NCBI RefSeq assembly: GCF_013409005.1
Contig: NZ_JACBZO010000001.1
Span: 2,046,001-2,110,000 of the forward strand
From: Demequina lutea
GTDB lineage: Bacteria > Actinomycetota > Actinomycetes > Actinomycetales > Demequinaceae
Reading direction: 5' to 3'
Length of the DNA: 64,000 nucleotides
Both the position numbers and the translations under genes were made by a program. Every line of letters begins with the position of its first letter. Within the stretch, counting starts at the first letter, position 1. The notes beneath the pieces were generated by a model. It saw only the letters and a program-made list of their open reading frames with translations. It was not told where the DNA came from and made no database searches. Positions 38,074 to 43,451 of the stretch are shown here, piece after piece.

Positions 38074-40821
38074 ATGAGTTCTCGCATTCCTGACAAGGCC
38101 ACCGTCGACGGTCTCGAAGACCGCTGGAACGCCTCGTGGGAGAGCAGCGGCGTTTACCACTTCGATCGCAGCAAGACGCGGGAGCAGATCTACTCGATCG
38201 ACACTCCCCCGCCCACCGTGTCCGGATCGCTCCACGTCGGCCACGTATTCAGCTACACGCACACCGACGTGATTGCCCGCTACAAGCGCATGCGTGGGCT
38301 CGAGGTGTTCTACCCGATGGGTTGGGACGACAACGGCCTACCCACCGAACGCCGCGTCCAGAACTACTACGGCGTCCGCTGCGACCCCCTCCTCACGTAT
38401 GTGGATGGTTTCGAGCCTCCCTTTGAAGGGGGCGACGGCAAATCGTCCAAGGCGGCCGACCAGCTTCCGATTTCCAGGCGCAACTTCGTCGAGCTGTGCG
38501 AGCGCCTCTCCTCTGAGGATGAGAAGCAGTTTGAAGCACTCTGGAGCCACCTGGGCGTGTCCGTGGACTGGCGCATGACATACCAGACGATCTCCCCCTC
38601 GTCCCAGGCGGTCGCCCAGCAGGCATTTCTGCGCTCGCTCGCCCGCGGCGAGGCATACCAGGCGGAGGCGCCGACGCTGTGGGACGTCACGTTCCGTACT
38701 GCCGTCGCACAGGCCGAACTCGAGGACCGCGAGCGTCCCGGCGCGTATCACCGCCTCGCGTTCGAGCCAGCGGCCGACCTCGAGGAGGCCACCGGTTCCT
38801 ACGAGTCGATCTACATCGAGACGACGCGCCCTGAGCTCCTCGCGGCGTGCGTCGCGATCGTGGCGCACCCCGACGACGAGCGCTACCAGCCCTTCTTCGG
38901 CAAGCACGTGCGCACTCCCCTGTTTGGCGTCGAGGTGCCCGTCCTGGCTCACCGCCTCGCGAGCCCCGACAAGGGCTCTGGCATCGCGATGATCTGCACG
39001 TTTGGCGACGTCACCGACGTGATCTGGTGGCGTGAGTTGCAGCTCCCCATTCGCCCCATCATCGGCTGGGATGGTCGTCTGCTCACCGAGGCCCCACCTG
39101 GCCTCGACACCGAGGCGGCGCGCTCGGCCTACGCGGAACTCGCGGGCAAGACGGTTTTCGCCGCCCAGCAGCGCAGCGTGGAGATGCTGATCGAGGCAGG
39201 CGTGATGGAGGGCGAGCCTCGTCCGATCACGCACCCCGTGAAGTTCTTCGAAAAGGGGGACCGGCCTCTCGAAATCGTGACCAGTCGCCAGTGGTACATC
39301 GCCAACGGAGGCAAGGACGCCGATCTCCGCGAGGCCCTGCTCGCCCGCGGCGCCGCGCTCGACTTTGTGCCCGCCCACATGGGCAAGCGCTACGAGAACT
39401 GGGTCAACGGCCTCACCGGCGACTGGCTCATCTCGCGCCAGCGCTTCTTTGGCGTGCCGATCCCCGTGTGGTACCCGCTCGACGAAACCGGCGAGCCTCA
39501 GTGGGAGGCCCCAATCGCACCCTCCGAGGACTCCCTGCCCGTCGACCCCCAGGCCGATGCCGCGCCTGGCTATGACGAGTCGCAGCGCGACCAGCCGGGC
39601 GGCTTCACGGGCGAGAAGGACATCATGGACACGTGGGCAACGTCTTCGCTCACGCCGCAGATCGTGTGCGGTTGGCGCAACGACCCGGAGCTCTTCGCCA
39701 AGACGTTCCCCATGGACCTGCGCCCCCAGGGACAGGACATCATCCGCACGTGGCTGTTCTCGACCGTGGTGCGCTCGCACCTTGAGCACGACGTCCTGCC
39801 GTGGAAGCATGCGGCGATCTCGGGGTGGATCCTCGACCCCGACCGCAAGAAGATGTCCAAGTCAAAGGGCAATGTGGTCACTCCGATGGGCCTGCTCGAG
39901 CAGCACGGCTCCGACGCGGTGCGCTACTGGGCGGCCTCTGCGAGGCTTGGCACCGACGCCGCATTTGATGAGGGCCAAATGAAGACCGGCCGACGCCTCG
40001 CCATGAAGGTGCTCAACGTCTCCAAGTTCGTGCTCGGCGCGAGCGGGATCACCACCGCTGCCGATGCCTCGCTGGAGGCGGGCATCGGAGCGGCCTCCCA
40101 CGTGACCGCGGCTCCCGTAACCGAGCCGCTCGACCAGGCAATGCTTGCGGGCCTTGCCAAGGTGATCGAGACCGCCACCGCGGCGCTCGAGGCCTACGAC
40201 CACACGCGCGCGCTCGAGGCCGCCGAGTCATACTTCTGGACCTTCTGCGACGACTACGTGGAGCTGGTCAAGGAGCGCGCCTACGACGGCGCCGCTCTCG
40301 GTGAACCCATCGACCCGTTTGCTCCATGCTCGCCCAAGGCGGCATCGGCGCGCGCGGCCCTCACGATCGCGCTCGACGCGTTCCTGAGGCTCTTCGCTCC
40401 CGTACTTCCATTTGCCACAGAGGAGGTGTGGTCATGGTTCAACGAGGGATCGATTCACCGAGCCGCATGGCCCACGTCGGACCGTACGCGGGAGACCTCG
40501 GCGGGTGAGGACCCCGCTGTGCTGATCGCGGCCGGAGCCGCCGTGAGCGCGCTCCGCAAGATCAAGTCGGACGCAAAGGTGTCGCAGCGGACCGAGATTC
40601 TTTCGGTCGACCTGCTCATCCCGGAGGCCCAAGTGGCCCATGTCAATGCCGCCAAGCCAGACATCATGGCCGCGGGCCGCGTCGTGTCCCTCCAGGTGAT
40701 CGACGCCGTGACCGCTCTCGATCCGAGCGTCGACGGCATGGGCAGCGAGGACGGCTCAAGCACGGCCATCCTGGACCCCAACGTCGTCCGTACGGAGAAC
40801 GTGGTCCTCGCGGAGGCCTAA
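38074..40821 (+). CDS. valS: Valyl-tRNA synthetase
   Basis: This 915-residue class I synthetase has the HIGH-type motif SGSLHVGHVFSYTHTD near residue 50 and the KMSKS loop RKKMSKSKGNVVTPMGL near 590. The editing domain carries ESIYIETTRPELLAACVAIV. The version of the KMSKS region and the lack of a C-terminal coiled-coil arm match the ValS form common in several actinobacteria. No T-box is seen upstream. The gene ends directly at the left repeat of the 40829-42116 cassette. Confidence 0.96.
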   Translation: MSSRIPDKATVDGLEDRWNASWESSGVYHFDRSKTREQIYSIDTPPPTVSGSLHVGHVFSYTHTDVIARYKRMRGLEVFYPMGWDDNGLPTERRVQNYYGVRCDPLLTYVDGFEPPFEGGDGKSSKAADQLPISRRNFVELCERLSSEDEKQFEALWSHLGVSVDWRMTYQTISPSSQAVAQQAFLRSLARGEAYQAEAPTLWDVTFRTAVAQAELEDRERPGAYHRLAFEPAADLEEATGSYESIYIETTRPELLAACVAIVAHPDDERYQPFFGKHVRTPLFGVEVPVLAHRLASPDKGSGIAMICTFGDVTDVIWWRELQLPIRPIIGWDGRLLTEAPPGLDTEAARSAYAELAGKTVFAAQQRSVEMLIEAGVMEGEPRPITHPVKFFEKGDRPLEIVTSRQWYIANGGKDADLREALLARGAALDFVPAHMGKRYENWVNGLTGDWLISRQRFFGVPIPVWYPLDETGEPQWEAPIAPSEDSLPVDPQADAAPGYDESQRDQPGGFTGEKDIMDTWATSSLTPQIVCGWRNDPELFAKTFPMDLRPQGQDIIRTWLFSTVVRSHLEHDVLPWKHAAISGWILDPDRKKMSKSKGNVVTPMGLLEQHGSDAVRYWAASARLGTDAAFDEGQMKTGRRLAMKVLNVSKFVLGASGITTAADASLEAGIGAASHVTAAPVTEPLDQAMLAGLAKVIETATAALEAYDHTRALEAAESYFWTFCDDYVELVKERAYDGAALGEPIDPFAPCSPKAASARAALTIALDAFLRLFAPVLPFATEEVWSWFNEGSIHRAAWPTSDRTRETSAGEDPAVLIAAGAAVSALRKIKSDAKVSQRTEILSVDLLIPEAQVAHVNAAKPDIMAAGRVVSLQVIDAVTALDPSVDGMGSEDGSSTAILDPNVVRTENVVLAEA

Positions 40822-40828
40822 TCCCCCC

Positions 40829-40890
40829 AAGTGGCGCAATCTGTACCGCCTATGGGGCACTGATGGCGTTCAGTGGCGCAATCTGTACCG
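40829..40890. repeat. Left repeat array of the cassette
   Basis: Two copies of AGTGGCGCAATCTGTACCG begin at 40830 and 40872, 42 bp apart. The inner copy lies within the last codons of the AbiEi/DUF559-like gene (encoding VQIAPLNA), and the gene stops just inside the outer copy. Confidence 0.9.
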
Positions 40891-41854
40891 TGCTCGGTCC
40901 CTCAACCGTGCCAGCATGCTCACTTCGCACCGGAACGGACCGGAGCCTCAGCACGTCGCGCGCGGTCGTCCTGCACCATTGCGGCCGCTCCGTGAGGTCC
41001 CTGTAACTGAACCGCAGCGTCAGAATGCCGACAGCAGCCAGGTCGGCATCGCGGCGCAGATCTCGCTGCCACTCCTTCACCCCTGCGTGATACGTTGCTC
41101 CGTCCAACTCAATCGCGGTCATGCTCGCAGCGTCATACATGTCGAGCCGGTATCTCCCACCTCCGGTGCTGACCACGTGTTGCTTCAACAGAGCACGGAA
41201 GCGACGGCCGACGAATACCTCGTCCATTGCATGAACCTCTAGGTAGCTTTCGGCGCCAGCTGCCACACGCGCGACCAGGGCGGCCATCCGCTTCCTTTCC
41301 CTGAGTCGCGGAAGATCGTGCGCGGCTCGCGTCGCTAGCTCGAGCGCCGTCGGGTCCGCCGCCACGAGCTCGCACAAGGCGGATGCCCGTACATCCGGAG
41401 CCATCTCGGAGAACGCGTGGCACCAGGCGATTGCTGGTTCGACAGCATCGCATCCGTCCACCATCACGGTCAGTGGTCGATATGACAGGCGTCTCACGCG
41501 AACCCATCGCGGTCGGCCACTCATGCGGCGCGCTGCAGGCACCACCACCTCGACCCGGCTCGGTGGAGTACGGAGCGCACCCGCTAGGAACAGGGAGGCG
41601 GCGCCTCCGATCCACGCTTCCGAGCCTGCCCACTGCATGGCCGCGTCAACTCTGGTGGCCATCGACTCGGCGTGAGTGGTACTCGCGTAGATCCCGGGAG
41701 CGACCCGCTTCGCCACGCCGCTCTCGATCGCCGATACGAGTTGGCGATGGGAAAAGAGCGCCTCGAGTTCAGCGCCGTGATACGAGCGCCAGGTTCGGGG
41801 CAACCACTGCGCGAGGGAGGTACCCGGCGTCGGTACGGATCGGAGAGAGGTCAT
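40850..41854 (-). CDS. AbiEi-like / DUF559 (endonuclease-fold) protein carried by the cassette
   Basis: From the ATG at 41854 the product has about 334 residues; upstream in-frame codons up to 42019 lack conservation-like features. The N-terminal part (about 15-90) resembles AbiEi antitoxin-type winged-helix domains: LFSHRQLVSAIESGVAKRVA and PGIYAS. The C-terminal part (about 220-315) is DUF559/Vsr-like with YRLDMYDAASMTAIELDGAT and RDADLAAVGILTLRFSY, suggesting the PD-(D/E)xK fold. No AbiEii-type toxin is present. Such fusion proteins are common in actinobacteria without known function. Its C-terminus is encoded by the inner left repeat, so cassette and gene evolved as one unit. Confidence 0.78.
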   Translation of the reverse strand: MTSLRSVPTPGTSLAQWLPRTWRSYHGAELEALFSHRQLVSAIESGVAKRVAPGIYASTTHAESMATRVDAAMQWAGSEAWIGGAASLFLAGALRTPPSRVEVVVPAARRMSGRPRWVRVRRLSYRPLTVMVDGCDAVEPAIAWCHAFSEMAPDVRASALCELVAADPTALELATRAAHDLPRLRERKRMAALVARVAAGAESYLEVHAMDEVFVGRRFRALLKQHVVSTGGGRYRLDMYDAASMTAIELDGATYHAGVKEWQRDLRRDADLAAVGILTLRFSYRDLTERPQWCRTTARDVLRLRSVPVRSEHAGTVEGPSTVQIAPLNAISAP

Positions 41855-42017
41855 GAACCGATTCGCGCACGGTCGTCGGACCCGTTGGCGCCCCTTGTCG
41901 CCGAGCTTGGGAAACCGCCTGGGATTCCGGCTTGGGGGCGACGCTACTGGCGTCGGCGCCGAGACTTCGTTTGGTATGGATTGCGCCACCAGGCGGCCGC
42001 CGATGCCGCTAGAAGGC

Positions 42018-42117
42018 ACAGATCAAACCACTAGGAGGCCCTAGGCACACCTAAACGGACAGATCAAGCCACTAGTGAGCGGATTGCCCTCAAAACCGGT
42101 ACAGAATGAGCCACTTC
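42018..42117. repeat. Right repeat array of the cassette
   Basis: ACAGATCAAACCACTAG (42018), ACAGATCAAGCCACTAG (42059) and ACAGAATGAGCCACTTC (42101) are spaced 41 and 42 bp and are inverted relative to the left array. They lie upstream of the AbiEi/DUF559-like gene, so they could also act as operator sites for its own winged-helix domain. Confidence 0.85.
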
Positions 42118-42131
42118 CCCGGGGAGGGAGG

Positions 42132-43451
<1,320 letters not shown>

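Follow-up and report, generated by a model that had tools for sequence, protein, structure and literature searches.

The window analysed here, a 64,000-nucleotide stretch of the Demequina lutea genome, carries between valS and clpX a gene for a protein with an AbiEi-like half and a DUF559 half, enclosed by arrays of a short repeat. We located the repeats by motif search; the start of the gene is supported by homologs, and its assignment by domain searches and predicted folds. The features at this site are as follows.

38074 to 40821, plus strand: valS, which adjoins the conserved site on the left
40830 to 40847, plus strand: outer copy of the left array, AGTGGCGCAATCTGTACC
40850 to 41854, minus strand: AbiEi-DUF559 gene for a predicted Vsr/EDxHD-like nuclease of 334 aa
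40872 to 40889, plus strand: inner copy of the left array, 42 bp further on, within the 3' end of the ORF
41973 to 41990, minus strand: innermost copy of the right array, diverged, GGTGGCGCAATCCATACC
42015 to 42032, minus strand: copy of the right array, AGTGGTTTGATCTGTGCC
42056 to 42073, minus strand: copy of the right array, AGTGGCTTGATCTGTCCG
42098 to 42115, minus strand: outer copy of the right array, AGTGGCTCATTCTGTACC
42132 to 43451, minus strand: clpX, which adjoins the conserved site on the right

The 18-bp motif AGTGGCGCAATCTGTACC stands in two plus-strand copies to the left of the gene and four minus-strand copies to its right, all facing inward, with spacings of 42 bp on the left and of 42, 41 and 42 bp on the right. 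The original prediction had described two copies on the left and three inverted ones on the right; the arrays, their orientation and the 41-42-bp spacing held up, and the diverged copy at 41973 raises the right-hand number to four. The outer copies, AAGTGGCGCAATCTGTACCG and AAGTGGCTCATTCTGTACCG, are identical at 18 of 20 positions, just as had been claimed when they were likened to terminal inverted repeats. With up to three mismatches allowed, the motif matched four times in the window against 0.14 expected, and no shuffle contained four matches. The longest ORF spans 40850-42019 on the minus strand; homologs place its start at 41854, giving 334 residues. At 40850-40946 the inner left repeat is overlapped by the 3' end of the DUF559 reading frame, so that the last residues of the gene are encoded by array DNA. 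Gene and arrays together sit between convergent 3' ends, with the valS stop at 40821 and the clpX 3' end at 42132, and no transposase gene lies between the arrays, both as originally described.

Pfam assigned the second half of the protein to DUF559 and MTES_1575 (REase) and the first half weakly to AbiEi, which PADLOC reported at an E-value of 2e-6. We built an AlphaFold2 model on 20 orthologs from the valS-clpX site, with a mean pLDDT of 87.5. In the model, residues 9-198 adopt the complete fold of AbiEi antitoxins (6y8q, Z 12.3; Rv2827c, 1zel, Z 9.3), and residues 201-307 resemble Vsr-like nucleases (NGO0050, 3hrl, Z 12.9; I-Bth0305I, 3r3p, Z 12.5; Vsr, 1cw0, Z 10.2). E206, D238, E249, D251, H256 and D265 are invariant, and by its modelled fold and these conserved acidic and histidine residues the C-terminal half is a predicted Vsr/EDxHD-type nuclease. 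Values of dN/dS between 0.07 and 0.19 in three close pairs indicate that the protein is under purifying selection. Beside the DUF559 gene, whose neighbours are valS and clpX, we found no AbiEii (DUF1814) toxin gene, and a search for DUF559 homologs on plasmids returned none.

We then counted the repeats across whole genomes by pattern searches with reversed-pattern controls. The degenerate motif matched 70 times in the D. lutea genome (G000) against 7 in the reversed control, bearing out the expectation that the repeats occur elsewhere, and 111 times against 3 in G003, a genome of the same genus; G046 had 10 matches (control 1) and G013 had 4 (control 3). A two-copy pattern matched in only these 4 of 59 genomes, and an exact pattern scan of the genomes of 85,000 species, a set that may leave out near relatives, gave only two stray matches. 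The 18-bp motif AGTGGCTYRATYYGTACC of D. lutea is not palindromic and contains no GTAG. Same-strand spacings in G000 and G003 taken together were 41 bp (48 cases), 42 bp (53), 40 bp (2) and 43 bp (1), and all 16 close inverted pairs of arrays in these genomes face inward, with none outward; in 8 of the 16 the inner gaps are 6, 16 and 17 bp. Both the 41/42-bp spacing and these inner gaps fit the helical phasing that had been suggested for the repeats.

The arrays are intergenic, often directly after a stop codon or between convergent genes; some, including inverted pairs, lie between divergent or co-directional genes, and many are single-strand arrays. Strict 3'-end (terminator) elements were rejected as a whole account of the arrays, since inverted pairs occupy these divergent and co-directional gaps as well. 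Many array sites of G000 are common to G003. The 2578-kb copy of G000 is absent at the orthologous site in G003, G007 and G046, and its 1066-kb array, which occupies a gap of 946 bp, is absent from G046 and G007, where the gaps measure about 127-138 bp. Array sites turn over, being present or absent at orthologous gaps of relatives. They also seem to cluster along the chromosome; one region of G000 downstream of gyrA (C1:72000-91000, L031) holds seven array clusters within about 7 kb.

Other species carry other motifs in the flanks of the valS site, among them TGTCCGGCACTCATTGTCG in G048, CTATGGGACGCTCATCGTCGGTTT in G040 and GTGGTAGGTAGTGGTCGG in G019. When the left flank was compared with the reverse-complemented right flank, the match in 19 of 24 genomes was better than in any of 300 shuffles, leaving five sites without clear inverted flanks; three further valS sites also beat their shuffles, for 22 of 27 overall. 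Of 74 control genes put to a comparable test, 5 passed, three of them bracketed by such arrays. With G000 and G003 left out, de novo searches of the flanks returned 41 bp as the best period in 20 of 30 cases and 42 bp in one more, against 41 or 42 bp in 1 of 15 shuffled flanks. The G048 motif has 28 copies in G048 (control 0) and three in 43 other genomes, and the motif of the G011/G019 clade has 37 copies in G019, 26 in G011, 23 in G021, 17 in G061 and 10 in G044, with 0-6 in others. Judged by these counts, the motif is different between species, abundant in the genome it comes from and scarce in most of the rest, and the 41-bp period is conserved. A Mantel test of array similarity tracking DUF559 rather than ValS similarity gave a partial r of 0.16 (p 0.12).

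These observations bear on a regulatory explanation, in which the AbiEi-like half would act as a repressor and regulate its own gene through the flanking arrays as operators, the dispersed arrays would make up its regulon or a DNA-organising network, and the nuclease half would act elsewhere or on invading DNA. AbiEi and Rv2827c are known to autoregulate through inverted 23-bp repeats (PMC7319586), and a 41/42-bp spacing is helically phased; however, most arrays come after gene 3' ends, between convergent genes or far from starts, and the gene is flanked by them at its 3' end no less than at its 5' end. The complete replacement of motifs between near relatives, together with the gain and loss of sites, is also unlike a stable regulon, and we consider a purely regulatory role unlikely.

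Congeneric DUF559 genes away from valS have inverted flanks of their own in 15 of 23 cases (9/12 and 6/11), the remaining eight lacking clear ones. Elsewhere in the order, three of six DUF559 genes taken from other families (L336, L338 and L339) also have such flanks. The sequence CGTAGTGGGTCAWCACGTACC, read from the flanks of the DUF559 paralog at 48-49 kb, matched 23 times in the D. lutea genome (control 0) and 0-2 times in each of 43 other genomes. One of the 23 matches belongs to the first family, leaving 22 of a second family that occur mostly as 41-bp-spaced pairs, with copies so spaced at 48.2, 96.4, 101.5, 318.8, 2778.6, 2793.0 and 2897.0 kb; the 101.5-kb pair had appeared earlier among weak first-motif matches, so that CGTAGTGGGTCAWCACGTACC served as a partly unblinded test of prediction. 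The D. lutea genome thus carries a pair of DUF559 genes, and to each belongs a separate dispersed family. Every DUF559 gene tested proved to have a cognate family of repeats, which runs against the original picture of a passive non-autonomous element with cargo and makes the DUF559 gene more likely the active component. Separately, we observed true palindromes (hairpin doublets) on both flanks of DUF559 paralogs at L281, L282 and L285 (G003, G021) and L336 (G031), and these palindrome-flanked paralogs are nearer to classical REPINs than the 41-bp direct arrays are.

At the conserved site itself, the DUF559 gene adjoins valS in 24 of 30 congeneric loci, valS and clpX are directly adjacent in two (G013 and G046), and the other four are not assignable either way. 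The gene at the same site in G003 has about 61% amino acid identity and is flanked by three left and five right copies, against two and four in G000. The original prediction had set an empty site in relatives against a gene always present at the locus; empty sites do exist in G013 and G046, and occupancy of 24 of 30 loci goes part of the way towards the second, which was to count against the prediction. The same occupancy, with arrays in G003, contradicts the recent insertion that had been proposed. Multiple terminal repeats resemble IS21-type ends, which is the point in favour of a recent non-autonomous IS21-like transposon with a defence gene. Besides the 24 occupied loci, several observations stand against such an origin: the istB-bearing elements of the D. 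lutea genome have no such arrays and the cassette itself contains no istA or istB, which leaves the suggested IS21-type parent without a candidate; target-site duplications were not seen by eye at six bracketed sites; and the scan of 85,000 species' genomes, which may leave out near relatives, contained no autonomous parent with the pattern. We regard an IS21-like transposon as extremely improbable.

The gene lies on the same strand as valS in 10 genomes and on the opposite strand in 14. Across these 24 genomes, five orientation changes are needed on the ValS tree compared with two on the DUF559 tree, so that orientation follows the gene lineage and replacement fits better; in-place inversion as the source of the changes was rejected on the same comparison. 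G048 and G014 are sisters with 96% identical ValS, while their DUF559 genes are 46% identical and oppositely oriented, and constraining the two together on the DUF559 tree was rejected (AU p 2e-8). The tree conflict and the mismatch between these sisters point to the exchange of whole cassettes at valS-clpX. The gene is long established at the site, yet the cassette has evidently been replaced as a unit, and the route may have been either homologous recombination in the flanks or targeted insertion. G003 and G046 are likewise sisters on the ValS tree; the former has the gene and 111 copies of the motif, and the latter, without the gene at the site, has 10 degenerate copies. Judged by the valS-clpX site alone, this contrast supports an apparent dependence of the arrays on the DUF559 gene.

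The further cassettes with other cargo that had been foreseen were also found, in that arrays bracket unrelated genes elsewhere. Inward arrays enclose single unrelated genes at L290:2122-3216 and L291:2061-3002 (G021), L287:2189-3030 (G048) and L042:7499-9385 (G000), the cargo comprising a GNAT acetyltransferase, a lipoprotein, a thioesterase-like protein, and a lipoprotein with a second ORF, and these units resemble cassettes. A DUF222-HNH (REP13E12-like) subfamily is present in three copies each in G000 (L155:3135-4732, L156:3297-4907 and L158:3429-6463, at 185, 1123 and 1878 kb) and G003 (L170:16590-18268, L173 and L144), with 86-95% DNA identity. These units open with 2-4 copies of the first-family motif, and the similarity among them extends from roughly 10 bp outside the outermost copy to a point within the variable tail of the ORF; the remaining DUF222 genes (four in G000, two in G003) have no array matches nearby. 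Because the same arrays stand upstream of the DUF222-HNH family, another nuclease could be involved.

The repeats might accordingly be pictured as an independent family, whether REP/MIRU-like 3'-end elements or sequences moved by another transposase or by DUF222-HNH, that merely accumulates near the DUF559 gene. Arrays do bracket other genes and form the left end of the multi-copy DUF222-HNH unit, and many directly follow stop codons. Independence is nonetheless hard to reconcile with two different dispersed families for the two DUF559 genes of one genome, with gene-specific palindromes or arrays that flank the majority of congeneric DUF559 genes and some of those from other families, with the mere 5 of 74 control genes so flanked, and with the few, decayed arrays that accompany loss of the gene. 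We find an independent family very unlikely.

Our preferred reading is that gene and arrays probably form one unit, a predicted nuclease with dedicated dispersed repeats that are spread or maintained by the protein. It draws on the way in which gene and motif go together, the specificity of the motif for its species, the conserved 41-bp period, dispersal, site turnover, cassette replacement, purifying selection and the two folds, all of them read from sequence, and from these we infer that the protein binds the motif, cuts, and mobilises the arrays. The AbiEi half would bind the motif of about 20 bp, two copies 41 bp apart would present a target of about 59 bp to a protein dimer, and the nuclease half would cut or nick at the array. 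Cutting would in turn allow arrays to be spread or maintained through repair or transposition, as RAYT transposases do for REPINs. The first motif lies dispersed in intergenic DNA of the genome both in single-strand arrays and in miniature inverted pairs. AbiEi and Rv2827c each bind 23-bp repeats of their own and do not bind those of the other (PMC7319586), and I-Bth0305I dimerises on a target of nearly 60 bp (PMC3943268).

The modelled likeness of the nuclease half to a homing endonuclease also raises the idea of a selfish nuclease of the homing type, for which the arrays would be only cleavage targets or self-protection, made by replication slippage and recombination. The variable copy number at one site (2+4 in G000 versus 3+5 in G003) would suit such an enzyme, but homing alone leaves the dispersal to dozens of intergenic sites and the strict inward pairing unexplained, and we judge it to be quite unlikely. 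Returning to a nuclease with dedicated repeats, we tentatively raise the broader possibility that AbiEi-DUF559 proteins make up a new class of nucleases that mobilise repeats, independent of HUH and DDE enzymes and spread across the order, each propagating its own 41-bp-phased arrays and inverted miniatures.

Comparison with known systems places this locus beside REPIN-RAYT (PMC3116915, PMC3733652), with which it shares short extragenic repeats that are numerous and specific to their species, inverted doublets, a location mostly between convergent or co-directional genes, and repeats on either side of the gene for a dedicated enzyme. However, two features that define REPIN-RAYT are lacking: RAYT is an HUH tyrosine (Y1) transposase, whereas here an AbiEi fold is joined to a predicted Vsr/EDxHD nuclease; and REPs are palindromes that carry a GTAG tag, whereas the repeats here are for the most part direct, phased at 41 bp and built on an asymmetric motif. 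In addition, the DUF559 cassette is apparently replaced at its site rather than inherited strictly vertically. The complete AbiEi fold of the AbiE type IV toxin-antitoxin systems (6y8q, Rv2827c) is present in the N-terminal ~190 residues, and known members specifically bind repeats of about 23 bp (PMC7319586), but the locus is not such a toxin-antitoxin pair: no AbiEii gene adjoins, a nuclease domain is fused, and the repeats are scattered genome-wide. The C-terminal fold and its conserved acidic and histidine residues are those of EDxHD/Vsr-like nucleases (I-Bth0305I, Vsr, NGO0050), and the nearly 60-bp dimer target of I-Bth0305I compares with the 59 bp spanned by two array copies; unlike genes for those enzymes, the present one lies outside any intron or phage, and dozens of copies of its flanking motif are present. 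Miniature, gene-less inverted-repeat elements that lie between genes and are present or absent at orthologous sites are a trait shared with MITEs and non-autonomous IS elements, but no target-site duplication was seen here and no DDE transposase parent was found. Finally, three REP13E12/DUF222-HNH genes in G000 and three in G003, members of a family known from actinobacteria, start with the same arrays, but they encode another nuclease family and have arrays at one end only. Collectively, these comparisons leave as the best reading a set of dispersed repeats with a putative dedicated enzyme, a pairing like that of REPIN and RAYT but without an HUH transposase.

Searches of the open-licence literature returned no published description of this system, no link between DUF559 and repeats in titles or abstracts, and nothing relevant on REPINs in Actinobacteria, on DUF222 with repeats, or on dispersed repeats with a nuclease. 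DUF559 and AbiEi-DUF559 genes are common and, to our knowledge, without an assigned role. One paper notes that REPs of the CGTC type have no known transposase (PMC3733652). If the pairing is functional, it would give DUF559 and AbiEi-DUF559 genes a role, add an enzyme class to the REP/REPIN question, and supply many natural variants for testing the co-evolution of a DNA-binding domain with its target. It may also account for lineage-specific intergenic repeats that would otherwise be taken as noise, and, were the protein shown to move the arrays, it would represent a new class.
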